Below, piece by piece: positions 1-18,203 of a stretch of DNA of 33,377 bases (its first letter is position 1; the number at the start of each line of letters is the position of its first letter). Origin of the DNA: Coleofasciculaceae cyanobacterium SM2_1_6 (GTDB taxonomy: Bacteria; Cyanobacteriota; Cyanobacteriia; Cyanobacteriales; JAAUUE01); assembly GCA_012031635.1 (NCBI GenBank), contig JAAUUE010000007.1:1-33377 (forward strand), in the 5' to 3' direction. A program made the translations under genes and the position numbers. A model generated the notes under the pieces. It searched no databases. It saw only the letters and a program-made list of their open reading frames with translations, and was not told the origin of the DNA.

Positions 1-1
1 G

Positions 2-1189
2 TTGCGCTGGGGAACCCCGCCCCAAAAGTCCAAAGCCACGGATATTCTCCGGCGGATGCTCACGGATCCCCAAGAAAAAGAGCGAATTATGGGCTGTCGA
101 GCGCTGCGGGAAGCCAACTATCTCCAAGCTCTGCGGATTTATATTCCCCAATTATTGGAAGATGAATCCCTACGGGTGCGGTGCGTGCTGCTGGAGGTGA
201 TTGCCAGATTGCGTTTGGAAGAATATTATCCGGCGCTATTGCGGGGCTTGTATTACAAATCCACTAGGGAAGCGGCTCGACAGGCGTTAATCTCCATGGA
301 GGATGAGGCGATCGCCCTAGTTCGATCGCTAGCGGCGGATCCCCATAAGCCCCAGTTGGTTAGGTTTCAAGCCTGGGAAGTCCTAGGGGGCATTGGCACT
401 CGGTTGGCGGTGGCGAGTTTGGTGGAGGAGTTGCTCACCAGTTGGGGAAGTACCCGGCAGCAAATCCTGAAAACCCTCTTGAAAGTACCGGGGGAATCGG
501 GCATTGAAATGGTGTTGGATCAGTTAGGACGGAGCGGGGTCGAGCATTTGATTTATCAGGAGTTGTTGTTTTTAGCTCAGGTCTACGGGGCGATCGCCGA
601 TCTCTTGGGGGATGATTTGGAGTTGCTCCGGCAATCTTTGCAAGACACGGTGGATGATATCCTCGATCGCTGTTTTCTGTTGATGAAATTTCTCTACCCA
701 CCCACGGCGATCCAAGCGGCGGCTTTTAACCTTGATTCGGAGGCTCGATCGAGTATTGCCCTCGGCATAGAAATCTTAGATAATACCCTCGATTTATCCA
801 CAAAACAAGTATTACTGCGAGTCCTCGACCAGCGCAGTATTCCCGAACGCCTCCTTAGTCTCCAGCCCCTGCTACCCTACAAAAAAATGTCGCCCCGCGA
901 TCGAGTGCATCACCTCCTAGAACTCCGATACTTCCTCTCCGATTGGTGTCTTGCCTGTTGTTTTCATGGGGCGAGGGCGGAGCGGTGGCGGCTCAATTTA
1001 GACATAATTCTGCTATGTTTAAGGCATCCGGCGGGCTTAGTCCGGGAAGCGGTATTAGCTTATCTCCAAGTAGCCTCGCCCCGTACCTGTAACTCATTGA
1101 TCCAACTTCTCGACCAAGACCCAGACCCTTTAGTCGCCTCCCAGATCAGGCAGTTAATTGAATCTAGAGATTTTCATCATGCTGACTAG
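2..1189 (+). CDS. HEAT-repeat domain protein, C-terminal part (5' end outside window)
   Basis: Open from window edge; repeated helical pairs (e.g. LRVRCVLLEVIARL, VREAVLAYLQVASP), HEAT-like; overlaps the downstream cNMP-binding gene by a few nt. Confidence 0.7.
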   Translation: MRWGTPPQKSKATDILRRMLTDPQEKERIMGCRALREANYLQALRIYIPQLLEDESLRVRCVLLEVIARLRLEEYYPALLRGLYYKSTREAARQALISMEDEAIALVRSLAADPHKPQLVRFQAWEVLGGIGTRLAVASLVEELLTSWGSTRQQILKTLLKVPGESGIEMVLDQLGRSGVEHLIYQELLFLAQVYGAIADLLGDDLELLRQSLQDTVDDILDRCFLLMKFLYPPTAIQAAAFNLDSEARSSIALGIEILDNTLDLSTKQVLLRVLDQRSIPERLLSLQPLLPYKKMSPRDRVHHLLELRYFLSDWCLACCFHGARAERWRLNLDIILLCLRHPAGLVREAVLAYLQVASPRTCNSLIQLLDQDPDPLVASQIRQLIESRDFHHAD

Positions 1190-1676
1190 TGTTGAGCGTT
1201 TATTATTTGTGCGGGGTGTACCAATTTTCCAAGAGTTGCGGGATGACTTTCTGGTGCGGTTGGCGGCAGTGATGGATGAGGTGGCTTTTCCGCCCAATCA
1301 CCGGATTTTCACCGAGGGGGAGGAGGGGCGATCGCTCTACATCGTGGTTTCAGGTTTAGTCCGGGTACATATAAGTGATCGGGATCTAGTCCGCCTGCAA
1401 CAGGGGGCAACGTTTGGGGAAATGTCTTTGTTTGATGCAGAACCTCGATCGGCTTCGGTGACAACTCTCGCTCCCTGCGAATGCCTAATTCTCACGCAAC
1501 TCCAACTCTATGATGCGATCGAAGAAACCCCCGGTGTGGCGATCAATATTATCCGGCTCCTCTCCCGGCGCATCCGTGAACTCAACAAAAAACTCAACTC
1601 CTACGAACAAGCCGCCCCCAATTCTCCCCAATCCCTACCCCAGACAAAAAATATCGCCCTCACTCCCAGAGGATAA
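1179..1676 (+). CDS. Cyclic nucleotide-binding (Crp/CAP_ED) domain protein
   Basis: Motifs IFTEGEEGRSLYIVVSGLVRVH and GATFGEMSLFDAEPRSASVTTL; ATG at 1179 is a more likely start than 1158. Confidence 0.85.
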   Translation: MLTSVERLLFVRGVPIFQELRDDFLVRLAAVMDEVAFPPNHRIFTEGEEGRSLYIVVSGLVRVHISDRDLVRLQQGATFGEMSLFDAEPRSASVTTLAPCECLILTQLQLYDAIEETPGVAINIIRLLSRRIRELNKKLNSYEQAAPNSPQSLPQTKNIALTPRG

Positions 1677-1679
1677 AGA

Positions 1680-2012
1680 TTAGCCATTTAAATCATCCTC
1701 TTGATGAGAGGCAATGACTCGATCGATCTCTGCTTGATTCTGTTCGTAATAAGTTTGGACCGCAATAAGATCATTTGAAGTGAGGCTGGGATAGTTACGG
1801 AGTAGTTCTTCATTGTCTGCTCCTTGTTTTTGGAAAGAAATGATCGTCCATACAGGAATACGAGTATTGCGGATTCGAGGATTCCCACCACACACACCAG
1901 CCGTCTTTTGGATGCTTCTAGTTTGCAATCGTTCCTGAAGAAGTTTGGTTTCTTCTGGGGTAAGAGATTCGATGATTTGAAAAAGGGAGTCTACTAACTT
2001 GATGTTGACCAT
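1680..2012 (-). CDS. DUF433 domain protein (orphan antitoxin-like)
   Basis: CGGNPRIRNTRIPVWTIISFQKQGADNEELLRNYPSLTSNDLIAVQTYYEQN is a typical DUF433 pattern; no toxin ORF downstream on the same strand. Confidence 0.8.
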   Translation of the reverse strand: MVNIKLVDSLFQIIESLTPEETKLLQERLQTRSIQKTAGVCGGNPRIRNTRIPVWTIISFQKQGADNEELLRNYPSLTSNDLIAVQTYYEQNQAEIDRVIASHQEDDLNG

Positions 2013-2087
2013 TGTTTTTTGATCTTCTCGTGTACTTTTTCTAGGATATTACTAATACTGATCTAACCGGAATAATCGTCCTCAGAG

Positions 2088-2132
2088 GTTTGATCGATGT
2101 TCATACAGCTAGGCGATCGCATAGTTGATGAC
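2088..2132. repeat. Direct repeat copy 1 (approx. 45 bp) flanking the DUF433/DUF5615 cassette
   Basis: gtttgatcgatgttcatacagctaggcgatcgcatagttgatgac; matches 3118-3164 with few differences. Confidence 0.8.
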
Positions 2133-2173
2133 TAGAGCCTTGCTAATATTAAAATAGAAAATTCATCGGACTT

Positions 2174-2506
2174 ATGACTTTAGCAATTGCCCTTGAACCT
2201 ACACCAATAGAAACCGATGCTCACGGTGTTGTCCGAGTTGCCAAAACTCGCATTACCCTAGATACCGTTGTCACTGCTTTTTTGGAAGGCTGCACACCAG
2301 AAGAAATCGGCGAGCAATATTCATCGCTACAAATCTCAGATATCTATCTTGTAATTGGTTATTATTTGAGACATCGGGATGAAGTTCATGCCTATCTTGC
2401 CGAACGTCAACACCAGTCAGCGATCGTTCAACAGGAAACTGAACAACGATTTAATCCGATCGGTATCCGCGATCGCCTCCTTGCTAGAAAAAATCAGTAC
2501 AGGTAA
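2174..2506 (+). CDS. DUF433 domain antitoxin-like protein
   Basis: TRITLDTVVTAFLEGCTPEEIGEQYSSLQISDIYLVIGYYLRHRDEV; directly upstream of a DUF5615-like gene. Confidence 0.85.
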   Translation: MTLAIALEPTPIETDAHGVVRVAKTRITLDTVVTAFLEGCTPEEIGEQYSSLQISDIYLVIGYYLRHRDEVHAYLAERQHQSAIVQQETEQRFNPIGIRDRLLARKNQYR

Positions 2507-2512
2507 GCTAAG

Positions 2513-2866
2513 ATGGTTCGGTTCCTAGCTGATGAAAATTTTAATAATCAAATTGTGCGGGGTATTCTTCGCCAAAGCCCAAGTATTGATATTGTGCGAA
2601 TTCAAGATGTGGGTTTATCAGGAGCAGATGAACCCAGTGTATTGGCATGGGCAGCCCAAGAAGAACGAATTGTTCTGACCCATGATGTGGCAACGATGAT
2701 AACTTTTGCCTACGATCGCATCCAAGCAGGATTATCTATGCCCGGATTATTTGAAGTAAGTCGTCGTGTCTCCCTAGGTTTAGCAATAGAAGAAGTAATC
2801 CTAATTGCTGAGTACAGTTTAGATGGAGAGTGGGAAGGACAAGTAAGATTTCTACCTCTAAGATAA
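2513..2866 (+). CDS. DUF5615 family PIN-like toxin
   Basis: MVRFLADENFNNQIVRGILR...DVGLSGADEPSVLAWAAQEERIVLTHDVATM is characteristic; 6 nt after the DUF433 gene. Confidence 0.88.
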   Translation: MVRFLADENFNNQIVRGILRQSPSIDIVRIQDVGLSGADEPSVLAWAAQEERIVLTHDVATMITFAYDRIQAGLSMPGLFEVSRRVSLGLAIEEVILIAEYSLDGEWEGQVRFLPLR

Positions 2867-2885
2867 ACGTTAGAATTTAGCTGGG

Positions 2886-3116
2886 TTGAATTTAGAAGAT
2901 GAGGTCATTCATGATTTATTAAGGAGAGACATCATGCAAGAATCAACAGTTTACCGTTCTATCCAGAAAGAAGCTAAGGCTGACGCAAAACGAGAAATTG
3001 CTCTCAACTTTTTACGAGATGGCTTGTCAATCGAGATCATCGCCCGTGGAACAGGTTTATCGATTAAAGAAGTAGAACAGCTTCAACAACAAAGCAATAC
3101 ATCTTCCCAGAGCTAG
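2886..3116 (+). pseudogene. C-terminal remnant of an Rpn-family (PD-(D/E)XK) putative transposase/nuclease
   Basis: LLRRDIMQESTVYRSIQKEAKADAKREIALNFLRDGLSIEIIARGTGLSIKEVEQLQ matches the C-terminal tail type of this family; the nuclease domain is absent. Confidence 0.6.
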
Positions 3117-3117
3117 A

Positions 3118-3164
3118 GTTTCGATCGATGTTCATGTAGCTAGGCGATCGCAAATTTGATTGAC
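3118..3164. repeat. Direct repeat copy 2
   Basis: gtttcgatcgatgttcatgtagctaggcgatcgcaaatttgattgac; pairs with 2088-2132. Confidence 0.8.
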
Positions 3165-3302
3165 CAATACCCTCATCCTGAAGCCTCAAGCAGTCTTGAT
3201 ATCTGACTGACAAAAAGAGAAGGAAAATGAATGGAAATCATTAATGCCTAGAAAATGGTAGGCTTTTAGAATAAACTGTCTATCTATAAGGAGCTAAATC
3301 TT

Positions 3303-4799
3303 ATGGCTACGGAAAATGGGGTAATGATGCAGTATTTCCATTGGTACAATCCCACCGATGGAAACCTTTGGAAACAGGTAGCAGAAAAGGCTGAAGAACT
3401 GGCGGCTAAGGGTGTGACTTCCCTCTGGCTCCCTCCCGCCTATAAGGGAACTGGGGGTGGCTACGATGTGGGGTATGGGGTTTATGACTTGTTTGACTTG
3501 GGGGAATTTGACCAAAAAGGCTCAGTACGGACTAAGTATGGTACTAAGGACGAGTATATCCATGCCATTAAAACTGCCCAAAAACACGGGATTCAAATCT
3601 ATGCCGATGTGGTGTTTAATCACCGCCTAGGGGCTGATGCAGAAGAAGAGGCCGAAGCTACGCCCTTTGACCCCAATAATCGTCATGCTCAGATTGGGGA
3701 ATATCAAAAAGTTAAAGTCTGGACACACTTCACTTTTCCAGGTCGACTCAAAGAACCCTTTGATAAAACCACCCAGTATTCTAGTCTGCAATGGCACTGG
3801 TGGCACTTTGATGCGATCGACTACAATTCCTACAACCAAGGACAAAAAGCCATTTATCTCCTCAAGGGCAAGGAGTTCGATCGTAATGTAGACCTAGAAA
3901 AGGGTAATTTTGACTATCTCATGGGCTGTGATCTGGATATGGATCACCCAGAAGTGCAGGGAGAGTTGAGATACTGGGGAGAATGGCTGATGGACACCAC
4001 CGGCGTAGATGGTTTCCGGTTTGATGCTGTCAAGCACGTAAAAGCTGAATTTTTCCAACAGTGGCTAGAACATCTCCGTCACTACGCCAAGCGGGATTTG
4101 TATGCCGTCGGTGAATACTGGTCTTATGAAGTTGAGGCTCTCCACAGTTTTATTGAGGTGACAGGCGGCAAAGTCCAACTTTTTGATGCACCCCTGCACT
4201 ACAATTTCCACGCTGCTAGTGTCAGTGGCAATACCTACGACCTCCGGCAGATTTTTACCAATACCCTAGTTAAGAATCAGCCCACCCTCGCTGTCACCCT
4301 TGTGGAAAACCATGATTCTCAACCTCTGCAATCTTTGGAATCTGTAGTCGAGCCTTGGTTCAAACCCCTAGCCTATGCCTTGATTCTGCTGCGGGCGGAA
4401 GGTTATCCCTGTATTTTCTATGCGGACTACTACGGTGCTCACTACAAAGACCGGGGCAGAGATGGCAACGAGTACGAAATTTGGTTAAATAGTTTCCAAG
4501 AAATTCTTGACCAGTTTCTCTTTGCCCGGGAAACCTATGCCTACGGGGATCAATACGATTATTTTGACCATCCCAACACGATCGGCTGGACTCGCCTCGG
4601 CAATGACAAACATCCGGGAGGTGTCGCTGTGGTGCTAACTAATGGCAGTGACGGCTTCAAATGGATGGAAATTGGGCAGCCCAATAAAACCTACAAGGAT
4701 ATTACTGGGCATATCACAGACACCATCACCACCAATGACCACGGTTGGGCAGAATTTCGCTGCAACGCAGGCTCCGTCTCCGTCTGGGTTCTCGAGTAG
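3303..4799 (+). CDS. Cytoplasmic-type GH13 alpha-amylase
   Basis: MMQYFHWY, DVVFNHR, DGFRFDAVKHV, AVGEYW and VENHDSQP catalytic regions; no evident signal peptide. Confidence 0.93.
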   Translation: MATENGVMMQYFHWYNPTDGNLWKQVAEKAEELAAKGVTSLWLPPAYKGTGGGYDVGYGVYDLFDLGEFDQKGSVRTKYGTKDEYIHAIKTAQKHGIQIYADVVFNHRLGADAEEEAEATPFDPNNRHAQIGEYQKVKVWTHFTFPGRLKEPFDKTTQYSSLQWHWWHFDAIDYNSYNQGQKAIYLLKGKEFDRNVDLEKGNFDYLMGCDLDMDHPEVQGELRYWGEWLMDTTGVDGFRFDAVKHVKAEFFQQWLEHLRHYAKRDLYAVGEYWSYEVEALHSFIEVTGGKVQLFDAPLHYNFHAASVSGNTYDLRQIFTNTLVKNQPTLAVTLVENHDSQPLQSLESVVEPWFKPLAYALILLRAEGYPCIFYADYYGAHYKDRGRDGNEYEIWLNSFQEILDQFLFARETYAYGDQYDYFDHPNTIGWTRLGNDKHPGGVAVVLTNGSDGFKWMEIGQPNKTYKDITGHITDTITTNDHGWAEFRCNAGSVSVWVLE

Positions 4800-5076
4800 C
4801 AGATATCCTTGACAGCAAATACGGTTCAAATGTACTATAAACAGAGGTAAAGATTTCATTGAAGATTTGGCGTTGTTGATCAGTAGAATGAATTGTTAAA
4901 TATGCAGATTGCAAAAGGTATTTACTGCGAGACTTCTGAAATTTTGCACAAACAGTTTTCATACTTTAATATAGCAACGTCCAGATTTTCACACCTATAT
5001 CTTTTTTTTGTAATAAATTTGCTCAATAACTAATTTGAGAGACGCAGACAAAACATAATTTATTCAATATTTATTT

Positions 5077-5364
5077 ATGAAGATTGACAATCCATTTGAT
5101 AGGATGCTTGAAAATTATAGAGGTCATATCCCCGGATCAGTACGAGATGCTGCTGTCTATGTTACTGATACTCTTGATTTGGCATGGGCTGCTGCTCAAT
5201 CAGTTTTTGAAGAACAGGCAAAGCCAGAACATGCTTTAAAAATTCTTGAATTATTTCTTTTAGAAGCAAATAAATATAAGCTTGAACAACAAGAAGAACT
5301 TAAAGAATTTTTTTTAGAAAAAAGCAAATGGGAGATTAGAGATCAGGAAACTGATGATATATAA
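5077..5364 (+). CDS. Hypothetical protein (95 aa)
   Basis: ATG-initiated ORF with a plausible helical composition; family not recognised. Confidence 0.5.
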   Translation: MKIDNPFDRMLENYRGHIPGSVRDAAVYVTDTLDLAWAAAQSVFEEQAKPEHALKILELFLLEANKYKLEQQEELKEFFLEKSKWEIRDQETDDI

Positions 5365-5498
5365 TTTTGACCTTACCTAATTATTTTCATTAAGCTTCAT
5401 GTAATACTTTTGGTGTTGCAGAAAAGAGATATTAATTCTTGAATATGCAGATTTTAGAAAGTAGCTACTTGCTCCTGACATAGCAATGCTAAAAGAAT

Positions 5499-5816
5499 AT
5501 GAGTCGATTAACATTACGATTACCGGAAACTTTACATCAACAGCTTATTCATCTCGCTGAAGGTGAAGGTGTATCACTAAATCAGTATATTGTTTATGCA
5601 TTGACTCGTCAGGCAGCCTTAGCCCCTATAATTCAGGTTCCTGAAGCAGAAATCGAACAACAACAGGCATTCCAACGACTGATCAAGCAATTAGGGCAAG
5701 CATCCCCTGCTGAGATGGAATCTGTATTAACAATGCGCGAACAAACAGAACCAGAATCAGACTTAAGTTCAGAGATAGTCACTCGTCTCCAAGAATGCAT
5801 CCGCAAGCAGGTATGA
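5499..5816 (+). CDS. Ribbon-helix-helix / HicB-like antitoxin protein
   Basis: MSRLTLRLPETLHQQLIHLAEGEGVSLNQYIVYALTRQ. Confidence 0.8.
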   Translation: MSRLTLRLPETLHQQLIHLAEGEGVSLNQYIVYALTRQAALAPIIQVPEAEIEQQQAFQRLIKQLGQASPAEMESVLTMREQTEPESDLSSEIVTRLQECIRKQV

Positions 5817-5907
5817 AAAATAAAAATGATTCTTTTTGTGAATAAAACTGTTGATAAAAATTAGTTCGATCGAGCCTAGCTTAGTTTTAATAACTTGAGA
5901 CTCGTAG

Positions 5908-6310
5908 GTGCGCCCAGAGCGATCGCAAATAATTAACACAACTTTATTTTATAGACTAAAATCCATTTATCTCAAAGGGCATAAATTACTAGCTTCAACG
6001 GTTTGGCAACACATACTCACCAACCAACTCTCTCTAGAGCAAACTGCCGAAAATTGGGGTGTGTCGATTTCTGCGATCTACGAAGTGACGCAATACTGCG
6101 AAAGTCACTAAGAATTATTGAAATTATAGTCGTTACCATAAAAGTTAGGACGAATTCGGCTACTTCGACAACGCTAAGCATAAATTCGACTTCGCTCAGC
6201 CAACGTATCTGGTCTTGTCCTAATTAATCTGTCTAGCACTATAGAAACTGACGAAGAACGTTATGGATTACAAGCTAAAGGAGTTGCCCTTGAGTCTATA
6301 AATGTTGCTT
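5908..6310 (+). pseudogene. DUF433-type gene relic interrupted by a MITE (and one in-frame TAA)
   Basis: HKLLASTVWQHILTNQLSLEQTAENWGVSISAIYEVTQYCESH(*)ELLKL, then 119-bp MITE, then ETDEERYGLQAKGVALESINVA*. Confidence 0.65.
6125..6243. mobile_element. MITE family A, copy 1 (TA-flanked, IS630-like ends)
   Basis: Ends TATAGTCGTTACCATAAAAGTTAGGAC and GTCCTAATTAATCTGTCTAGCACTATA form imperfect TIRs; second copy at 9980-10074. Confidence 0.8.
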
Positions 6311-6407
6311 AATGTACACTTTTTTGAGGTAAAGTCTGGGAAATTTGCCAAAAAATTGTAGATAATTGATGGCAGTAACTTTCAATAACTAACACTACCA
6401 GCCGCCC

Positions 6408-7561
6408 ATGCCTAATGCTGCCGTTGAACTCAGGGATGTTTGTAAGTCTTTTGCCAAGGATCGTCACCAAGATTTGCTAGTGGTAGATCAGGTGAATTTG
6501 GAAATTCGGGAAGGGGAATTTTTCTCGCTTTTGGGTCCTTCAGGCTGTGGTAAAACCACTAGTCTACGGATGATTGCAGGGTTTGAGCATCCCAGCGCTG
6601 GAGAGATTTATATTCATGGCGAACCTATGGGCGATCGCCCCCGTTCCATCGTCCCGTGAACACCGTATTCCAAAACTATGCCCTGTTTCCCCACCTCACC
6701 GTCAGCCAAAATGTCGCCTTTGGTTTAGAAATGGAAAACCTGTCCAAGGCAGAAATTCAACACCGGGTTGCCGCAGTCCTAGAGCAGGTGCAGCTAGAAG
6801 GTTTAGCCAAACGTTATCCCAAGCAAATGTCTGGGGGACAGCAGCAACGAGTTGCCCTCGCCAGAGCTTTAGTAAAACAGCCCGCCGTCTTATTATTTGA
6901 TGAACCCCTAGGAGCGCTGGATTTGAAACTCCGCAAGGAAATGCAACTGGAACTAAAGCGGATGCAACAACGCCTAGGGCTAACTTTTATTTATGTCACC
7001 CACGACCAAGAAGAAGCCCTCACCATGTCCGATCGCATCGCTGTGATGTCAAAGGGCAAAGTCCTCCAAGTCGGCTCTCCCATGGAAATCTATGAGGAGC
7101 CTGTGAATCGGTTCGTGGCAGATTTTATTGGCGAGACAAACTTCCTAACAGGCAGAGTTGCTTCTCAGCAAGGGGGCAGGGTTGTGGTTTTAATCGATGA
7201 AGAAGTTCCCATGACCGTGGATTGTCGGCAAGAAATGCCGCTTGGGAAAATTGTCACCCTCGTGATCCGTCCTGAAAAAGCCGAAATTTATGATAGCAAT
7301 CACCCGTCCCAGTCCACGCTTCCCGGTGTGGTGGAAGAGGTTGTATACATTGGCACCGATACCCGTTATCTTGTCCGGCTCACGCCCCAAAGTATCGTTA
7401 GTGTCCGTCGCCAGAATCTCCACCGTCGGGATTTAACTTTGCATCATGTGGGAGAAAAAGTCCAAGTATTAATTAATAGTGATAGTATCTGCATTCTAGA
7501 AGACGATCGAGCCGCTCAAGATAGCTACTCAAGACGCATCACAGAAATGGCTGTGTCTTAG
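6408..7561 (+). CDS. potA: ABC transporter ATP-binding protein, PotA-like; split by an apparent frameshift near 6630-6659
   Basis: Walker [10 protein letters not shown], signature SGGQQQR, Walker [12 protein letters not shown]; ORFs 6408-6659 and 6656-7561 join as [22 protein letters not shown] if one C is added. Confidence 0.8.
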
Positions 7562-7690
7562 AGGATGTCTGAGAAGTCGATCGTAGGGACACAAGGCTTT
7601 GCACCCTTACCCAATTCCTGATTTGGATCAGCCATGTAGAGAATCGGCATTAGTCTGTGCTGAAATTTCAGACACTTTTCAGATATCTTC
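7561..7690. mobile_element. MITE family C, copy 1 (130 bp), TTA flanks
   Basis: GAGGATGTCTGAGAAG at left and CTTTTCAGATATCTTC at right; TTA at 7558-7560 and 7691-7693. Confidence 0.7.
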
Positions 7691-7779
7691 TTAGTTGGCA
7701 ACCACCGGAAACTAGTCTCTAAATTAATAATTCTCATCTCATATTGAAGCCCAGATATTAGTCCCAAATCCCCAAAATT

Positions 7780-9255
7780 ATGCAATTAGAAGAAATAGTT
7801 AACCAGAGTTTGACGGTAGAGATAAAGACAAGCAAAACTGATCAAGATTTCGTCAAGCAAATTCAACAAAGGTTAAGTCTATTTCGCCTCTATCCCGGTG
7901 GCAGATGGATTGATGGTTTGTATGGCAGTAGAACCGAAGCTGCCCTGCTAACCTTTGGGACTACCTTAGGTTTAAATAGTTTTAATTTAGGAAAGATCGA
8001 TCGCACCTTTGCCCAGGGTTTATTAAATACTAATCCCGTAGATTTTGCCCTGAGTTTTGCCAAGAATCGTCCCCGGATTTTCCAAGATTTTCAGCAATTA
8101 ACTGTAGGTTTTGATTCCCAACGTTTACCAATTCTAGACATTGGCTATCTGAAATCTCCCTATCCCTTAGATATTAATTCCTATAGTCTCCGGCTCAAGG
8201 AAAAACCAGACTATCAAGAAGTAATTTCTCTAGGCGCAATGGCGAAATTAAATAACCCCGTTCGATCGGTCACCTTTAATCCCTACCCAGCGATCGGACA
8301 ACTGCCAACGATTGATCATAATGGTTTGAATTTTCTCCATAGCGATGTTACTGAAGCGTGTGTAGTGGTGGGCAGTTTTGTAGAAGGAGAAGTGCGGACT
8401 CGTTGGTTAGGAAAATCTGCCATGACTCCGGTAGAAATGTGGAGTAGTACTAAGTTTATTAGTCTTTTATATTTGATCTCCCAAATTAATTCTCGGTTTA
8501 TTAATTGCGATGTGGATAATTGTGTCATTAGAAATCCTAATAACGGGGCAGTTTATCCATTTTTTGATCTGGTTAGTGACATTTTTACCTACGATACAAA
8601 GATTTCTACTTCTAATGCCTTGGCAGCCATGTTTAAGCGGTTTAATTCTTGGGTGGGGTTAGAAGTTTGGCTCAAAAAAATGACAGGAAATAGTAATCTC
8701 CAGTTTTCAGGTCGGTATGGGGAATTGCCGTTTATTAATACGCCGGAGTTGGTCGATCGCAAGCTCAATCAAACGGTATTAAAATCTGTAGCCGAGGGAA
8801 ATATCGGCAGCAATTCTGTCTCTGCCTACGACCTGACCCGAATGATTAGTCTACTTGGTTGGCATTATCACATTCCCGCCAATGCGCGGCTGCCGGGGGC
8901 GCAGTGGGATAGTTTAGAGAGTTTGGCTCGGGCGATGGGGAAAGATACGGCGAGGCATCTGGATTTTGCGATCGACAAGTTGGCTCTCACTAGTGTCATT
9001 AGTTACCCGGTAGTATTATCAAAAATGGGCTTTGGACGCAGCACCATCAGAAACCGGACTGAGCTAGTTTATACGGGCTTAATTCGCTTCATTGACAAAC
9101 GCACGAAACCCGCCAAACTCAGAACCATGGCCCTCACCCTCCGGGCAGCGAAAGGTCTGAACAATGAAGATGAGGAGGCAAGACAGCTAGATGCTCGCAT
9201 GGGAGCAGAAATCACAGAAATTCTCAGGCGTTTAATCACGGAAGAGCTAGGGTAA
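7780..9255 (+). CDS. Peptidoglycan-binding-like domain plus serine hydrolase (beta-lactamase/PBP-like)
   Basis: N-terminal VKQIQQRLSLFRLYPGG.WIDGLYGSRTEAALLTF (PG-binding-like); SSTKF (SxxK-like) and NSVSAYDLTRMI. Confidence 0.65.
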   Translation: MQLEEIVNQSLTVEIKTSKTDQDFVKQIQQRLSLFRLYPGGRWIDGLYGSRTEAALLTFGTTLGLNSFNLGKIDRTFAQGLLNTNPVDFALSFAKNRPRIFQDFQQLTVGFDSQRLPILDIGYLKSPYPLDINSYSLRLKEKPDYQEVISLGAMAKLNNPVRSVTFNPYPAIGQLPTIDHNGLNFLHSDVTEACVVVGSFVEGEVRTRWLGKSAMTPVEMWSSTKFISLLYLISQINSRFINCDVDNCVIRNPNNGAVYPFFDLVSDIFTYDTKISTSNALAAMFKRFNSWVGLEVWLKKMTGNSNLQFSGRYGELPFINTPELVDRKLNQTVLKSVAEGNIGSNSVSAYDLTRMISLLGWHYHIPANARLPGAQWDSLESLARAMGKDTARHLDFAIDKLALTSVISYPVVLSKMGFGRSTIRNRTELVYTGLIRFIDKRTKPAKLRTMALTLRAAKGLNNEDEEARQLDARMGAEITEILRRLITEELG

Positions 9256-9302
9256 AACCTTTTTGGGTTAGGATAATAGTACTAAATTTTCTACAAGAAG
9301 TT

Positions 9303-9539
9303 ATGGCGAAGCGATCGACAGAAAATAAACTTACAAGTAAAAATGCTCCTAAGCGGGTTAAGATTTCAGAGATATCAAATTCTCAAACTACTAATAAAAG
9401 AAGTCTTCAAACCTCTACCCAAAAGCCTTTGGGGCGCAAGGAAAAGTTAGAAGCGGCTAAAAAGGCAAATCAGGCCATGATGAAAGTATGGCAACTTATT
9501 TCTCAGCGCAAAGACAGTGATGCCCAAGATCACCTTTGA
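9303..9539 (+). CDS. Lys-rich small protein, putative antitoxin partner of the PIN gene
   Basis: 78 aa; basic N-terminus and helix GRKEKLEAAKKANQAMMKVWQLI; overlaps the PIN gene start. Confidence 0.55.
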   Translation: MAKRSTENKLTSKNAPKRVKISEISNSQTTNKRSLQTSTQKPLGRKEKLEAAKKANQAMMKVWQLISQRKDSDAQDHL

Positions 9540-9927
9540 CACTAATATATTTATTTCTCGTAAATATGCCCAACTGCCTGAGAAATTTTATATGTCTGTA
9601 GTTGTGCTTCAGGAGCTTGTTGCTGGAGCGCAGGATGAGGCAGAACTTAAGGGTTTGTTGGTTGCTCGTCGGGGATATGAAAAAGCTGAGAGGTTACTTG
9701 TCCCCACTTCTGAAGATTGGTGGCTTGTTGGTAAGGTTATTTATGCACTACAAAAGGGTTTAAAGTCACAAAGAGGGGGACTAACCCCGAAAATGTCTGC
9801 TGATCAGAAATACAGAATCACTCATGATGTGTTAATCGCCCGGACAGCAAAGCGAGTAGGGGTGATACTAGTGACAGATAACATCAGAGACTTTGAGACT
9901 ATTCAACGTTTTGTAATGTTCGTTTGA
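9520..9927 (+). CDS. PIN-domain (VapC-like) toxin
   Basis: ITFDTNIFI, LQELVAG, THDVLIARTAKRVGVILVTDNIRDF; acidic residues of a PIN fold in order. Confidence 0.85.
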   Translation: MPKITFDTNIFISRKYAQLPEKFYMSVVVLQELVAGAQDEAELKGLLVARRGYEKAERLLVPTSEDWWLVGKVIYALQKGLKSQRGGLTPKMSADQKYRITHDVLIARTAKRVGVILVTDNIRDFETIQRFVMFV

Positions 9928-9979
9928 TAGCTGGAGATGAATATTTTGGGCTGTAGTTTAGAAAGCGATCCATAGCTCT

Positions 9980-10074
9980 TATAGTCGTTGCCATAAAAGT
10001 TAGGACGAATTCGGCTTCTACTTCGCTCAGCCAACGTATCTGGTCTTGTCCTAATTGATCTGTCTAGCACTATA
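9980..10074. mobile_element. MITE family A, copy 2 (95 bp)
   Basis: tatagtcgttgccataaaagttaggacgaattcggct...cttcgctcagccaacgtatctggtcttgtcctaattgatctgtctagcactata; nearly identical to 6125-6243 apart from an internal segment. Confidence 0.85.
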
Positions 10075-10095
10075 CAATTTAATTTAGATACTTCA

Positions 10096-10461
10096 TCAAG
10101 CATTTTCTCGTAACACAGGTTCATAGCCAGCATCGGCGGGAGCCACCACGGAAATAAAAGTTAATGGTTCATCCCCAATATTACGGACTCCATGGACACA
10201 ACCCTTAGGGGCAACGACTACATCCCCCGCCGAAATTAGTTTTACCGTTCCTGCCATGTCTAAATAATATTCTCCTTGCCCAGTTAAGATTGTCCAAGTA
10301 TCTTGCCCTTGGGGATGAATATGGGCAGGAATTTCTTGCCCCGGTTTGATATACCAAGCAACGATCGCTGCGTGGGTAGATTCAGTGATTACAGAGCGGA
10401 TTGGCTCCCCATCTGTGGGCTGAAAAAATTGGGAACTGGGAAAGATTCTGGGGATATTCAT
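10096..10461 (-). CDS. Small cupin-domain protein
   Basis: PGQEIPAHIHPQGQDTWTILTGQGEYYLD...GDVVVAPKGCVHGVRNIGDEPL. Confidence 0.9.
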   Translation of the reverse strand: MNIPRIFPSSQFFQPTDGEPIRSVITESTHAAIVAWYIKPGQEIPAHIHPQGQDTWTILTGQGEYYLDMAGTVKLISAGDVVVAPKGCVHGVRNIGDEPLTFISVVAPADAGYEPVLRENA

Positions 10462-10497
10462 AAGGCTCGAAGATAGAGAATTTAAGGAAAGATAAAC

Positions 10498-11754
10498 TTA
10501 TGGTTCGATTACTTTGTTCGGGGTCGATCGCTTAAGTAGCAAACTTGCTACAACAATACCAATAATCGCCAGTACTGCCATGGGATAAAAAACGTAGGTG
10601 TAATTGCCAAATAAATCCCGAATTTGTCCCGTAACCAGAGTACCGATCAAAGCCCCCACCCCGTAGGCTGTAAACACAATCCCATAATTTTGAGCATACT
10701 GATTGGGGTTGAAAAATTGCAAAGTAATCGTTGGAGCCATGGCTAGCCAGCCGCCAAGATTGAACCAATACAGACAAAAGGCAATGAGGTAGGTGGCGAC
10801 CTGTCCCTTTTGAGCGCCAATCATCATAATTGAGGCAATCAAGATCAAGGTGTAGGAAGCGATCGCTACGTAGTGGGGTTTGAAGCGATCGCACAGCCAG
10901 CCAAATAGAGGACGACTCAGACCATTGAACAGGGCAAATAGAGACACACTGCTAGCAGCTAAGGTCGGATTAATTTCAATCACTTCTTGACCCACAGAAC
11001 TAGAAATCCCGATGGCACTCAAGCCCACCAGACTCGCGATCGCGTAGCAAATCCACAATCCATAAAAAGCCCGATTTTTTAAGATTTGGGGGGGATAATT
11101 AAGAGCTTGAGCAGAGGCGGCCCTGGGGGAAGTTTGCCGGGGCTGCCAGTCCTTTGGGGGTGGTTTGAGCAGGGGGGCGATCGTCAGGACAATGATCATA
11201 AAAGCTATACCCAAAATCCGCAAGGTGGGCTGAATCCCATAGGCGGCAATTAATTGATTGGCGAGGGGAGCAGTGAGTAAGGGAGAAAGCCCAAAACCGA
11301 TAATTGTCAAACCTACCGCCAAGCCACGCTTGTCGGGGAACCACCTCGCCACCACCGCCATCGGCACACCGTAGGCGATCCCCACCCCTGTCCCCGTTAA
11401 TACGCCATAGGTGAGGATCATCATCTCAACGTTACTTGCCAAGCTAGAGAGAATGTATCCCAAGCCAACGATAATGCCGCCAAGGGCAGCGACCGGGCGC
11501 AGACCAAGACGGGGAATATAAAAACCGGCGATCGGCATCAGGAGAGCATAAAAAACTAGGGATACAGTGTAGGGTAATAGGCTTTGAGTGGCGGTAATGC
11601 CCAACTCCTCTTCCAGTGGTTTTCTAAACACGCTCCAAGTATAGAGATTTCCCAAACAGAGTAAAATCATCATCCCTAAGGGAATCAGCAGCCAGCGCCC
11701 TGTTTCGGCGGGTATTCCCAATACAGTTACATTTGAAGGATTGTCGTCAAGCAT
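10498..11754 (-). CDS. MFS transporter, oxalate/formate antiporter (OFA)-like
   Basis: Twelve-TM type; NLYTWSVFRKPLEEELGITATQSLLPYTVSLVFYALLMPIAGF is typical of OFA members. Confidence 0.85.
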   Translation of the reverse strand: MLDDNPSNVTVLGIPAETGRWLLIPLGMMILLCLGNLYTWSVFRKPLEEELGITATQSLLPYTVSLVFYALLMPIAGFYIPRLGLRPVAALGGIIVGLGYILSSLASNVEMMILTYGVLTGTGVGIAYGVPMAVVARWFPDKRGLAVGLTIIGFGLSPLLTAPLANQLIAAYGIQPTLRILGIAFMIIVLTIAPLLKPPPKDWQPRQTSPRAASAQALNYPPQILKNRAFYGLWICYAIASLVGLSAIGISSSVGQEVIEINPTLAASSVSLFALFNGLSRPLFGWLCDRFKPHYVAIASYTLILIASIMMIGAQKGQVATYLIAFCLYWFNLGGWLAMAPTITLQFFNPNQYAQNYGIVFTAYGVGALIGTLVTGQIRDLFGNYTYVFYPMAVLAIIGIVVASLLLKRSTPNKVIEP

Positions 11755-11895
11755 AAATTGTCAGGCAAAGGTTTACTGGTTCCGCACCATGGAAAAATAT
11801 CTAAAACTCTTTTGGTCTGTGGATTTCGACAATTTAACATTAAAATAACTAAGATATTTGTCAAGAGGAAATTTTAGTCAAATAATTCGATCAGG

Positions 11896-12119
11896 CGGAA
11901 CCAGCACCATCTACAGAAAACCTCGTTTCCTGTGCAAGGAATGCGGACGGCAGTTTTTGGAGCATCCCTCCCGACAACCCATTGACCAAGATACTATTAC
12001 CTTAGATTGATAAAGTGCTTTTGGAACATCTAACCTTGACGGCGATCGCTCGGATAACAAGAGTTTCTGGATGCGGCTCACTACAGGGTCTTGCTTCGAG
12101 TCTGATTACTATTCAATGA
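11896..12119 (+). pseudogene. IS1-family transposase fragment
   Basis: TIYRKPRFLCKECGRQFLEHPSRQPIDQDTITLD* and, in another frame, DKVLLEHLTLTAIARITRVSGCGSLQG. Confidence 0.75.
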
Positions 12120-12189
12120 CTACCTAAATTTGCAAATCCTTGTAGATAACTATAGAATCGAAGAGAAAAAATTTAGAAAAAATAGATTT

Positions 12190-12795
12190 ATGGCTCGATC
12201 GCACCCCTATCAACCCCTACCCCTGCGAGTATTCCATGGTGTCAATGGCTTAGTTGCCCTAGGGGCGATCGTCACTGGTTTTTTGGTACATAACAGTTTT
12301 GATGGCAGATTTGGGAAACTGCCCCTATCCAGAGTCAATAATATTATCGATCTGCATGGGACTTTGGGCTTAACTTTGATGTTTGTGTTTCCGGTGTTTG
12401 CTCTCTACAGTTTCCATGCCGGGCAAAAACGCCTAGTCCAAGCAGATTCCCTCAACAAATTATCGCAGCTTGGTAAACCCATCTGGTGGTATAGCCTCCA
12501 CCGCATTGTCAATACTCTATTTCTAGTTGCCACAAGTTGCGCTCTTCTTTCTGGCAGAATGATGCAGGAATCATGGCTACCCTTGGGAGAATTGGATCAG
12601 GTTTGGTACTCGGCTCACCTCGCAGCTTGGGCAGTAATAACCTTAACTATTCCCATTCATTTATCTATGATTATCAAAGTCGGCGGTGTGCCTCTGCTCT
12701 TGTCGATCGCCAGTTTCTCTAATCGTCCGGGAGACCAGTGGCAGGACTGGGGGAGAAAGTTTGCTTCAATGCTCGATCGACGCTCCCGCCCTTAA
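12190..12795 (+). CDS. DUF4079 / cytochrome b561-like membrane protein
   Basis: Multiple TM helices with conserved-looking histidines (DLHGTLGL, SLHRIVNT, YSAHLAAW); ATG at 12190 preferred over 12130. Confidence 0.65.
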   Translation: MARSHPYQPLPLRVFHGVNGLVALGAIVTGFLVHNSFDGRFGKLPLSRVNNIIDLHGTLGLTLMFVFPVFALYSFHAGQKRLVQADSLNKLSQLGKPIWWYSLHRIVNTLFLVATSCALLSGRMMQESWLPLGELDQVWYSAHLAAWAVITLTIPIHLSMIIKVGGVPLLLSIASFSNRPGDQWQDWGRKFASMLDRRSRP

Positions 12796-12844
12796 ATCTT
12801 GAAAATACTTAGAATCTCCTAACAATCCCCTAAAATCTTAGCTA

Positions 12845-12952
12845 ATGGCAAAAAAATCAAACCCACTATTACTAAGTGCCGAAATTTTGGTTCTAGCCCT
12901 AATCGCTGCGGCTTTCCTCGCTCCACTTTTTGTCTCTGCAACCCAAAACTAG
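12845..12952 (+). CDS. 35-aa single-TM microprotein (not in ORF track)
   Basis: MAKKSNPLLLSAEILVLALIAAAFLAPLFVSATQN*; basic N-terminus followed by one hydrophobic helix. Confidence 0.45.
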   Translation: MAKKSNPLLLSAEILVLALIAAAFLAPLFVSATQN

Positions 12953-13080
12953 GGTATCGTAACCAAAACTATAAACTAAGACTAGAGTAGTTCATTAGGC
13001 TAGGTTTAGGAACTCAACTCAACCTAACAAATTCATGAATCGGCGATCGTCCCAACTAAATACTCTAAGTTACAGACTAA

Positions 13081-13176
13081 CTATAGTGATCTTAAATTAT
13101 TTTCTAAACATTAGATGGCCTCTGGTAGCTTGTTCCACCCGCCTGCGGCGGGTGAAATCATTTGGGACTGCTACAC
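13081..13176. mobile_element. MITE family B, copy 1 (96 bp), just 3' of petG
   Basis: CTATAGTGATCTTAAATTAT at left; diverged right TIR; core hairpin CACCCGCC TGC GGCGGGTG at 13136-13154. Confidence 0.7.
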
Positions 13177-13183
13177 AAACTAA

Positions 13184-13297
13184 CTACATATCTAGGGTGT
13201 TGCCCCGTTTGTACTGTTCATAGGCTTTGAAAAATAATCCACCAAGGGTGACAAAAATCAGACCCAAAACGATCCCAGAAAGTAGAGGTTCAACCAC
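13184..13297 (-). CDS. petG: Cytochrome b6-f complex subunit V (PetG)
   Basis: Reverse-strand 37-aa ORF with GTG start: [43 protein letters not shown] upstream; closely matches remembered PetG sequence. Confidence 0.93.
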
Positions 13298-13443
13298 AAT
13301 AAAACTCCTTATTATTCTTATATACTTATTACCTAATGCTTATTTCATAATATAGCAGTCTCAAGCAATTTCCAGCAATTCCACAGTTCCCAACATCACA
13401 GTTCCCAATATCGCCGCACCAGCAGTTTTTCCACTTTTCAAAT

Positions 13444-14337
13444 CTAATCAAGTAAGGGCAAAATCTGGCGGATTAGTCCGATCGTGACCGCAGGTTGTTC
13501 TAGTTGGGGAGTAAATCCGACATCATCCAGATAGTAAAAGCCCCGAATGGCTTGAGGATTCATAGCTGCCAGCTGTCGCCCCAACTCAGGGCTGGTGAAC
13601 TGAGAACCCCGACCCCAAATCATGGCAGTAGGAGTTGTCAATTTGGGAATGTATGGAGACAAATCAAAGCACAAATCACCACGAACAAAGGAAAGTGCGG
13701 CATACTCTGCATTCTCACGTTGAGCCGATTGCAAGTATGCTTCAACAATTTCTGGGTAAATTCGCTCTGCCTTAGCAAACTGGCGTTGCTCCAAAAAGCT
13801 CCGAATCCCCAAGCTATTGGCAACCCCCGTCCCGTAGAGCAGTTGATTGAGCAAGGGAGCATTCACAGCTTGAGCAAACTGAGCGAAACCACTCTGGCGA
13901 TAGTCTTGTCCAAACTCACTCAAACCAGAGGCTGTAGTGACAATTAAGGACTTGAATAGCTCTGGTCGCTCGATCGCTGCCCGAATTGTGAAGGCTGCTG
14001 TCAATGACGAGGCAATTACCGTTGTCGCCCCAGTACAGGTCTGCTCCATGAACTCGATGATAGTTTCGATATAATCTTCGGCTTGGTAGCTACGAGGGGG
14101 ATGAGCCGATCGCCCCCAGCCAATCAAATCGGGAGCCAAGACTTGATAATCTGCGGCAAAAGCTGGATATACTTTTGACCATTCGTAGGCGGAGGAACCA
14201 CCACCAAAACCGTGCAGAAAGACTAATGTTTCTGTTGAGGTAGGTTCATGCCATGGTTCTCCTTGAGCCGTGTAATAGACCATCTTGCCGAGTTTGGTCA
14301 CGATCGATCGTTCGCCAAAACCACGAGGGATAAACAT
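13444..14337 (-). CDS. Alpha/beta hydrolase
   Basis: LVFLHGFGGGSSAYEW, VLAPDLIGWGRS, VIASSLTAA (nucleophile region). Confidence 0.88.
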   Translation of the reverse strand: MFIPRGFGERSIVTKLGKMVYYTAQGEPWHEPTSTETLVFLHGFGGGSSAYEWSKVYPAFAADYQVLAPDLIGWGRSAHPPRSYQAEDYIETIIEFMEQTCTGATTVIASSLTAAFTIRAAIERPELFKSLIVTTASGLSEFGQDYRQSGFAQFAQAVNAPLLNQLLYGTGVANSLGIRSFLEQRQFAKAERIYPEIVEAYLQSAQRENAEYAALSFVRGDLCFDLSPYIPKLTTPTAMIWGRGSQFTSPELGRQLAAMNPQAIRGFYYLDDVGFTPQLEQPAVTIGLIRQILPLLD

Positions 14338-14563
14338 TTAAATTTTCTCCTGATTCATCCTAACTAAACAATTTATAACTGCTAGGGAATATTGATTCTT
14401 AAGATTAATTTGTACTTTCTTGATTATTACTCTACAAGTTATTAAGCATTGTTACTGCCTTGTTAAGGTCTGTTGCAAATTTACCTAGGGCGGGGCAGAT
14501 TTCGGAGGTAGGCGTGATACCATAGCATGACCTAAGGATAAAAAGAGATAAGGGAGAAAAACT

Positions 14564-15784
14564 TTGGTTCTAAGAGTTGCTGTGGTAGGGTCTGGTCCGG
14601 CTGGTTCTTCGGCGGCGGAAACGTTAGCAAAAGCTGGAATTGAGACCTTTTTGTTTGAGCGCAAATTAGACAACGCCAAACCCTGCGGTGGAGCGATTCC
14701 TATGTGCATGGTGAGTGAGTTTGACCTCCCCCCCCACATTATCGATCGCAAAGTCCGCAACATGAAAATGATCTCCCCTTCCAATGTTGAAGTGGATATT
14801 AATATAACCAAGCCCGATGAATATATTGGTATGTGCCGCCGAGAAGTTCTCGATGGTTTCCTGCGCGATCGCGCTGCCAAGTTTGGGGCAAAATTAATTA
14901 ACGGGACTGTGCATCAGCTAGATATTCCCTCAAAGAATACTGATCCCTACACCCTCCACTACGCCGATCATTCTAGTGGCAGTCTCGAAGGAGAAGCCAA
15001 AACCCTACAGGTAGACGTGGTAATTGGAGCCGATGGAGCTAATTCCCGCATTGCCAAAGCCATTGATGCCGGGGACTATAACTATGCGATCGCCTTCCAA
15101 GAACGCATCCGTCTCCCAGAGGACAAAATGGCTTACTACGAAAACCTTGCCGAAATGTATGTGGGGGATGATGTCTCTACGGACTTCTACGCTTGGGTAT
15201 TCCCCAAATATGACCATGTAGCCGTTGGCACTGGCACCATGAAAGTCCACAAAGCTACCATCAAGCAACTCCAAGCTGGCATCCGCACCCGGGCAGCAAA
15301 AAAACTTGCTGGTGGTGAAATCATCAAAGTCGAAGCGCATCCAATCCCCGAGCATCCCCGTCCTCGGCGGGTTGTGGGTCGGGTTGCCCTCGTGGGTGAT
15401 GCCGCCGGAACCGTGACCAAATCCTCTGGGGAAGGCATCTACTTTGCAGCCAAGTCTGCCCGGATGTGCGCTGAAGCAATTATTGAGTTTTCTAACCAAG
15501 GCACCCGGATTCCTACGGAAGAAGAACTAAAAATTTACATCAAACGCTGGGATCGCAAGTATGGCTTAACCTACAAGGTCTTGGATATTCTGCAAACTGT
15601 CTTCTATCGCTCCAATGCGACCCGGGAAGCCTTTGTGGAAATGTGCTCTGATAAAGATGTGCAAAAACTAACCTTTGATAGCTATCTCTACAAAACTGTG
15701 GTGCCGGCTAATCCCCTGATTCAAATGAAGATCACGGCGAAAACGATCGGTAGCCTCCTCCGGGGTCATGCTCTTGCCCCCTAA
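14564..15784 (+). CDS. chlP: Geranylgeranyl reductase
   Basis: VAVVGSGPAGSSAAETLAKAGIETFLFERK...CGGAIPMCMVSEFDLP...; TTG start preceded by aagggag. Confidence 0.95.
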   Translation: MVLRVAVVGSGPAGSSAAETLAKAGIETFLFERKLDNAKPCGGAIPMCMVSEFDLPPHIIDRKVRNMKMISPSNVEVDINITKPDEYIGMCRREVLDGFLRDRAAKFGAKLINGTVHQLDIPSKNTDPYTLHYADHSSGSLEGEAKTLQVDVVIGADGANSRIAKAIDAGDYNYAIAFQERIRLPEDKMAYYENLAEMYVGDDVSTDFYAWVFPKYDHVAVGTGTMKVHKATIKQLQAGIRTRAAKKLAGGEIIKVEAHPIPEHPRPRRVVGRVALVGDAAGTVTKSSGEGIYFAAKSARMCAEAIIEFSNQGTRIPTEEELKIYIKRWDRKYGLTYKVLDILQTVFYRSNATREAFVEMCSDKDVQKLTFDSYLYKTVVPANPLIQMKITAKTIGSLLRGHALAP

Positions 15785-15825
15785 GATGGTTCTGGACTCA
15801 CCCCAAATTATTGATTAAATGCTAC

Positions 15826-15850
15826 TCCCCCAGTTTTAGGGGGATTTTTT
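15826..15850 (+). terminator. Rho-independent-type terminator downstream of chlP
   Basis: TCCCCC AGTTTTA GGGGGA followed by TTTTTT. Confidence 0.75.
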
Positions 15851-15895
15851 ATTGCGTCTTCTTGGCTATTGAAATTAGCTACTACTTACTAAAAG

Positions 15896-16147
15896 CTACT
15901 TAATTCTTAATTGCCAACATTTCTCTAAAAACTTTCCCAATTTTACCGGGGAGATAGTAACCTGCCGAGTCACACTCCAGACTTGGAGCAGTTGGGTGGG
16001 ATTGGAGATTTGAACCTTGATGGGTTGATAGAGACTGCATTGGCAAGGGATATCTAGCTCCTGGAGTCGTTGGTATACTTGCCATCGGTCTAATCCGAGG
16101 AGATCGATCGAATGCTCTGCCGATAGGGGTAAAGAGGGAGGATTCAT
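15896..16147 (-). CDS. Conserved-looking hypothetical protein (83 aa)
   Basis: ORF MNPPSLPLSAEHSIDLLGLDRWQVYQRLQELDIPCQC...; resembles small cyanobacterial hypothetical proteins. Confidence 0.6.
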   Translation of the reverse strand: MNPPSLPLSAEHSIDLLGLDRWQVYQRLQELDIPCQCSLYQPIKVQISNPTQLLQVWSVTRQVTISPVKLGKFLEKCWQLRIK

Positions 16148-16218
16148 AGTGGCATTAGGCTGTTAGGCTAAATTGTTAGAACAGAAACCTTGGGAATGAA
16201 TAGAAATTAGTATAGCAT

Positions 16219-16320
16219 TATCTCTCAATTTATTGCTAGTTATTCTCAATTAATCTTTAGGTTAATAATAAATTAAGGCGAAAAAACCGTAGATTGAGAG
16301 TCGCTATTCTCAATTAACCT
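16219..16320. promoter_or_regulatory. Cluster of iron-box-like (Fur) motifs upstream of dpsA
   Basis: tctctcaatttatt (16221), ttattctcaattaat (16240), ctattctcaattaacc (16304), plus inverted attgagag (16293). Confidence 0.4.
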
Positions 16321-16450
16321 GTGTTATTGTTTGATAAGTGCTACCTAGAAATTGTTAAGTCAAGTTAATTTGCAAGTCTTTTGTTAGGAGCTTTTCTTGG
16401 ATTTCTTCGTAATTGCTGATGTCTATATAATGAGGGAAAACTAGAAACTT

Positions 16451-17002
16451 ATGTCTATCACCCAGGGTTTAGTCCGTGCTTTCGGTGAAATTGGAAATAA
16501 TCCGGTTTTATTAGAAAAGAGTGTCACCGCACCAATCTGCGAGGGCATGAATGTTTTGTTGGCAAGTTTTCAGGCTTTGCATCTGCAATACCAAAAGCAT
16601 CATTTTGTAGTTGAGGGTTCCGAGTTTTATTCCTTGCACGAATTTTTTGCAGATAGCTCCAAAGATGTCCAAGGCTATGTCCATGATTTGGGGGAACGTC
16701 TCAATGGCTTGGGGGCAGTGCCTGTGGCTAGTTTTAGTAAGTTGGCTGAGTTGTGCTGTTTTACACCAGAAGCAGATGGCATCTATGACTGTCGGCAAAT
16801 GCTAGAACATAATCTGGCAGCCGAAAAAGAAGTCATCCAAGTCCTCCGCCGTCAAGCGGCTCAAGCAGAAAGTCTCGGCGATCGAGCCACTCGCTACCTC
16901 TACGAAAAGTTTCTTCTCGAAACGGAAGACCGGATGTTCCACCTCGACCACTTCCTCGCCCCCGACAGCCTCACCAAGAGTTTTGTTGGTATTAATAACT
17001 AA
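16451..17002 (+). CDS. dpsA: DpsA-type ferritin-like DNA-protection protein
   Basis: [52 protein letters not shown]. Confidence 0.92.
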
Positions 17003-17031
17003 TCGACATTGCTCAATATTGGACAATATTA

Positions 17032-17216
17032 GAGGATGTCTGAAAAGGGATGATCTGTAGTATTTCGCACTCAGAGATCCCTCCTATAGCCCACCTTCAA
17101 AAGGGGGGAAGCAGATTCAAAGTCCCCTTTTTGTTGGCGTAGCCTTCCCGTAGGGTAGGGGGATTTAGGGGGATCAAAACTTTTGCCACCCACAGTAAGA
17201 CTTTTCAGGCATTCTC
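17032..17216. mobile_element. MITE family C, copy 2 (185 bp), TTA flanks
   Basis: GAGGATGTCTGAAAAG / CTTTTCAGGCATTCTC; TTA at 17029-17031 and 17217-17219; internal hairpin AAAAGGGG...CCCCTTTT. Confidence 0.8.
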
Positions 17217-17265
17217 TTAGCCAAGGCTACTCCTAATCAGCAACGCTAAAGTTATTTGATAAAAA

Positions 17266-18203
17266 ATGGCTGAATATCTACCAGAGTATTTACCAGAGAT
17301 TCTTGCCCTAGACTTTGATGGGGTAATTTGTAATGGGCTGCGGGAATATTTTGAGATTGCTTGGCGGGTCTATCTCCAAGTTTGGCGGGGACAGGGAATT
17401 AAGGAAAATTGGCGGCAGGCTTTTTATAATTTACGCCCGGTGGTAGAAACTGGTTGGGAAATGCCGCTGGTGTTGCGGGCTTTGGAGTTGGGGTTTAGTG
17501 AGGCGAGTATTTTGCTTGATTGGGGGCGATCGCCTCCCAGATCGTAGCTACAGAGAATATTGATCCCAAATTAATCGCCAAGTTAGTAGACGGTTTACGA
17601 GATCAGTGGATTGCGGAAGATGTGGCAGATTGGTTGAGCTATCACGAGTTTTATCCCGGTGTCGTAGCAGCAATCCAAAAACTCCAGACCCAAAACCTCA
17701 CCATCCTAATTATCAGCACCAAAGAAGGGCGATTTATTCAACAATTGTTGCAGCAAGCTGGGGTTGAGCTGCCAAGGGAGGCAATTTTGGGCAAGGAATA
17801 CAAGCGTCCCAAGGCAGAAATTCTCCAAGATTTATTAGAATCTCGATCGAGTAATCTCTCCAGTAATATCCCTAGCCATCTTTTAAGTAATCTCTCCAGC
17901 AATATCCCCAGAAATATTTGGTTTGTGGAAGACCGCCTCAAAACCCTAGAGCAAATTGCCAAAATGCCAGCCCTAGGGGGGGTAAAACTATTCCTTGCGG
18001 ACTGGGGTTATAATACCCAAGCTATGCGGGATCAGGTAGTCAATCAAGTAGGGAATTTTGCAGGGGATCGATCGCTAGAGACTTCCCCAGCTAATCCTCC
18101 AGATAATTCTACAGATCATGATTACAGCAGTTCCTTTAATAACTCTTCAATTAAACTAATTTCTTTAGAAACTTTTGGGCAAAACTTAAAAAATTGGCTA
18201 TGA
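17266..18203 (+). CDS. HAD-family hydrolase, split by an apparent frameshift near 17520-17547
   Basis: ILALDFDGVICNG (motif I), ISTKEGRF, KRPKAEIL, WFVEDRLKTL; ORFs 17266-17547 and 17520-18203 join as LLDWGAIASQIVA if one G is added. Confidence 0.8.
17850..17918 (+). repeat. 36-bp in-frame tandem duplication in the HAD gene
   Basis: agtaatctctccag(t/c)aatatccc(t/c)ag repeated with a 36-nt period, encoding SNLSSNIP twice. Confidence 0.85.

Follow-up and report, generated by a model that had tools for sequence, protein, structure and literature searches.

Two genes in a 33,377-nucleotide stretch of a cyanobacterial draft genome (the window, meaning the whole stretch that was analysed) are each put out of frame by one base at the same 13-mer, and both breaks are most probably errors of the draft assembly's consensus, each a single-base deletion, that would belong to a genome-wide background of similar errors. 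Frame breaks occur at a raised rate throughout this genome, they affect indispensable genes, and outside the window pair they are not enriched at the shared motif. The draft genome (4.37 Mb in 449 contigs, 87% complete) was compared with the only other genome found for its genus, the MAG Microcoleus sp. GA_180221_E-2-1-MAG-45_12, which served as the reference and is hereafter called the congener. The tests covered 644 kb of the draft genome and 1.39 Mb of the congener, with 140-148 kb aligned between the two. The sample code GA_180221 would link the congener to a paper on a cold-water geyser, in which Illumina reads and metaSPAdes were used (PMC8755723).

Two split genes and a shared 13-mer

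The broken genes encode a potA-like ABC transporter ATPase and a hydrolase of the HAD superfamily. Their parts, the two copies of the 13-mer GGGGGCGATCGCC and an intact control site are as follows.

6408-6659, plus strand: 5' part of the potA-like ABC transporter ATPase gene, an ORF of 83 aa that ends prematurely after the break
6656-7561, plus strand: 3' part of the potA-like gene in another frame, an ORF of 301 aa with the remaining ATPase and TOBE_2
17266-17547, plus strand: 5' part of the HAD-superfamily hydrolase gene, an ORF of 93 aa
17520-18203, plus strand: 3' part of the HAD gene in another frame, an ORF of 227 aa with a HAD_2 profile match
6630-6642, minus strand: GGGGGCGATCGCC, copy 1, where a base is absent relative to the congener beside CGATCG, at about 6638
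17522-17534, plus strand: GGGGGCGATCGCC, copy 2, where the congener has one more base, after the G run and before CGATCG, at about 17527
11172-11183, plus strand: intact control GGGGGGCGATCG, within an unbroken MFS transporter gene (10498-11754, minus strand)

Profile searches matched the 5' part of the potA-like gene to PF00005 and to positions 17-85 of the PotA profile PRK09452, and the 3' part to positions 91-375 of the latter; because these matches follow one another along the profile, the two parts represent successive portions of one protein. In the other split gene, the HAD fold was recognised in the second part. Both genes are intact on one syntenic contig of the congener, with identities of 90% and 84% (the potA orthologue has 1155 bp and the HAD orthologue 310 aa), and alignment with the congener revealed in each gene a single absent base in the draft genome and no further frame-breaking gap. 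The frame finder used for the genome-wide counts, a phase-specific Markov/HMM trained on long ORFs of the draft genome, left the short 5' part of the potA-like gene unassigned, and this break was taken from the ORFs and the alignment. The preliminary description had reported an identical 13-mer at two genes each out of frame by one base, and an intact six-G run beside CGATCG at about 11172 in an MFS gene. Both statements are borne out: the coordinates and the unbroken frame of the MFS gene are right, and this gene matches NF049980 above the cut-off.

The same description had held that one G or C added to a five-base run restores both genes. One base is indeed missing from each; its identity is less clear. 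At both sites, the congener has five Gs, a T and then CGATCGC (GGGGGTCGATCGC, in the orientation of the G strand), the extra base in potA being an A on the coding strand, so that the missing base would be this T or, after a T to G change, a sixth G. A six-G run that lost one G was rejected as the sole route on account of the five Gs and T at both congener sites, and outgroup potA sequences did not decide between a lost T and a lost G. Among the 10 copies of GGGGGTCGATCGC in the congener, 8 can be aligned to the draft genome, where the T is kept in 4, changed to G in 2 and absent in 2, the latter being the window pair. Systematic loss of the T at GGGGGTCGATCGC was likewise rejected, given the 4 of 8 alignable sites that keep it and the 13 copies that persist in the draft genome versus 10 in the congener. 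One of the two T to G changes yields an intact six-G run (L284 vs L304). At this pair of loci and at one other (L280 vs L303), TCGATCGC in the congener corresponds in the draft genome to GCGATCGC, the HIP1 octamer, a difference that would amount to HIP1 gained (or lost) through a single substitution.

Past the break, the differences of the potA-like gene from the congener fall on the three codon positions as 12/5/74, and the changed codons comprise 69 synonymous versus 17 non-synonymous ones, a pattern of purifying selection downstream of the break. Because these changes are mostly synonymous, the potA frame was conserved until very recently, or is intact to this day. The HAD gene has 38 synonymous versus 44 non-synonymous changed codons past its break, which suggests weak purifying selection; this gene is fast-evolving and less informative than potA in this respect.

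Frame breaks across the draft genome

The same frame finder counted 45 wide same-strand frame switches in 490 kb of coding sequence in the draft genome versus 37 in 1,115 kb in the congener, corresponding to 9.2 and 3.3 breaks per 100 kb of coding sequence (ratio 2.8, P about 3e-9), absolute rates that are rough because some true overlapping genes are scored as switches. Projected onto the whole draft genome, the excess is about 195 breaks. In the draft genome, 10 breaks lie near G/C runs of five or more, compared with 2.8 expected, and the breaks of the congener showed no enrichment near such runs. Those breaks of the draft genome that can be resolved via the congener are mostly single-base deletions, located within short runs or adjoining one. 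The broken genes include gyrB, carB, acnB, panC/cmk, rlmN and menA. In whole-genome searches, the draft genome yielded gyrB, carB and acnB each as no more than a pair of abutting pieces that are out of frame with each other, accompanied in the case of carB and acnB by weak paralogues, whereas the congener has one intact gene for each. The split genes are located as follows.

Contig C19 of the draft genome, 1358-3279: split gyrB
Contig C449 of the draft genome, 8306-11475: split carB
Contig C118 of the draft genome, 13560-16090: split acnB

A cell without gyrase B is not viable. As gyrB is indispensable and is nevertheless split, most of the breaks in the draft genome must be consensus errors. 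Second intact copies might in principle reside on the DNA missing from an assembly that is 87% complete, but this is unlikely for three genes at once.

If the window pair arose in the same way, the two errors would derive from a genome-wide background of roughly 200 extra breaks, with G/C runs among the more error-prone places in this genome. HIP1 is extremely common, and a G5 run beside CGATCG would consequently be a frequent context, which may be how both breaks came to have the 13-mer in common. Consensus errors of this kind have a counterpart in nanopore assemblies, where homopolymers and unmodelled methylated motifs give rise to indels (Wick et al. 2019, PMC6591954). The draft genome resembles such assemblies in its single-base indels, which are scattered over genes of all kinds with homopolymers favoured, and in its essential genes, which are split yet intact in the relative; it differs from them in that the putatively methylated motif showed no enrichment outside the window pair. 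In this assembly, every split gene or "pseudogene" should be treated with caution as a likely consensus error.

It is unlikely that the sampled population really carries one or both breaks as recent loss-of-function mutations, produced for example by a T to G change that created a six-G run from which one G was then lost. The first of these steps, giving an intact six-G run, did occur elsewhere in the lineage of the draft genome, at the locus described above, and mutation by slippage at homopolymers is common in nature; moreover, cells can lose genes for transporters and HAD proteins, and the constraint on the HAD gene appears relaxed past its break. However, breaks of the same kind occur in gyrB, carB and acnB, not all of which can be real, and each of the two window genes has just one frame-breaking gap, the potA-like gene being otherwise under purifying selection.

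The shared motif against its genomic background

The window contains exactly two copies of GGGGGCGATCGCC versus 0.01 expected from dinucleotide shuffles, an expectation that misleads, given the huge over-representation of HIP1. There are 23 copies of HIP1 within the window, and its density in the draft genome, about 1 per 1.6 kb, is the usual cyanobacterial over-representation (Elhai 2015, PMC4390886). HIP1 is thus nothing unusual in this genome, and it forms the backdrop that makes the two breaks seem to share a special sequence; a motif common to two breaks means little when it is as frequent as HIP1. Genome-wide, GGGGGCGATCGCC is present in 41 copies in the draft genome and 30 in the congener, and in 0 up to 278 copies across 18 more distant relatives. 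The highest number, about 7x that of the draft genome, belongs to a genome of the same order (G010, a single contig of 5.0 Mb), which seems to favour HIP1 with a G run to an unusual degree; the other relatives have 0-50 copies.

Most copies of GGGGGCGATCGCC in the draft genome (32 of the 41) lie in an unbroken frame, 6 are non-coding, at a contig end or unresolved, and 3 are at a break, namely the window pair and acnB. The acnB break was rejected as a third case of the same kind, as its missing base lies on the flank opposite the G5 run. With the window pair included, 3 of 39 G5 runs adjoining CGATCG are at a break versus 8 of 948 other G5 runs (p = 0.008); without the pair, the count falls to 1 of 37 (p = 0.29), and there is no enrichment. 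The same holds for CGATCG sites of all kinds, 7 of 1697 of which are at a break when the pair is left out (p = 0.19). In the 140 kb alignment to the congener, 42 single-base gaps were found in the draft genome, and gaps are drawn to A/T runs and G/C runs. Four of the 42 lie near CGATCG versus 1.55 expected, and two of these four are the window pair, so outside the window 2 of 40 remain near CGATCG, which is no enrichment. An enrichment at CGATCG that had looked suggestive in the first catalogue, with four adjoining events, vanished with matched nulls and without the window pair.

These results tell against the slippage hotspot at the 13-mer that the preliminary description had considered, along with an enrichment of broken ORFs at G5CGATCG across the genome: many intact genes carry the 13-mer, and the enrichment is absent. 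It is very doubtful that GGGGGTCGATCGC acts as a modest deletion hotspot, mutational or basecalling, which loses the base beside the palindrome and thereby creates HIP1 octamers. The absence of the base at 2 of 8 alignable sites does exceed the background rate for one specific position, but these are the same two sites that prompted the question. A deletion hotspot on the flank of CGATCG, if true, would be relevant to the origin of HIP1 sites; the genome-wide tests are unsupportive.

An effect specific to a G run together with a methylated CGATCG, the HIP1 core, whether by systematic miscalling or by slippage, may be regarded as reasonable in principle, since nanopore consensus errors arise from unmodelled methylated motifs (PMC6591954) and high HIP1 in cyanobacteria is accompanied by CGATCG methyltransferases (PMC4390886). 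The occurrence of the same 13-mer at two breaks in one window, and the p value obtained with the pair included, would fit such an effect. As an account of the present breaks it is nonetheless highly improbable: neither the G5 runs beside CGATCG nor all CGATCG sites are enriched once the pair is removed, the single-base gaps outside the window show no preference for CGATCG, most 13-mers lie in unbroken frames, and GGGGGTCGATCGC is not depleted relative to the congener. Systematic sequencing error beside a methylated site, as put forward in the preliminary description, is supported in its error half, with 2.8 times the break frequency of the congener and with gyrB, carB and acnB split, and unsupported in its motif-specific half.

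The possibility that full-length proteins are made by slippage of transcription at the five-base run, or by a programmed or regulated frameshift (the latter also suggested in the preliminary description), can practically be dismissed: each junction has a five-base run, like the short homopolymer at the frame junction in known systems, and a one-base backward shift would join the two overlapping frames, but there is no conserved signal, the closest relative, the congener, needs only one frame for each protein, inspection found no in-phase canonical tandem slippery heptamer, the two genes are not related to each other, and breaks of this sort, with differing junction sequences, occur here and there in unrelated housekeeping genes.

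Other features of the window

At the start of the window, 32 bases (1158-1189) are shared by two ORFs in different frames, one a HEAT-repeat ORF (2-1189), the other a cyclic-nucleotide-binding ORF (1158-1676). This site, at about 1184, was considered as a third frame break and rejected, since in the congener (L308) the two ORFs overlap in the same way and no gap occurs there; the overlap is apparently a true, conserved feature of the two genes, not a frameshift. Upstream of the potA-like gene (window 1-6350), synteny with the congener contig C132 was not seen, and the stretch from 400 to 1676 matches a different congener contig, C58, which places a rearrangement boundary between about 1.7 and 6.35 kb.
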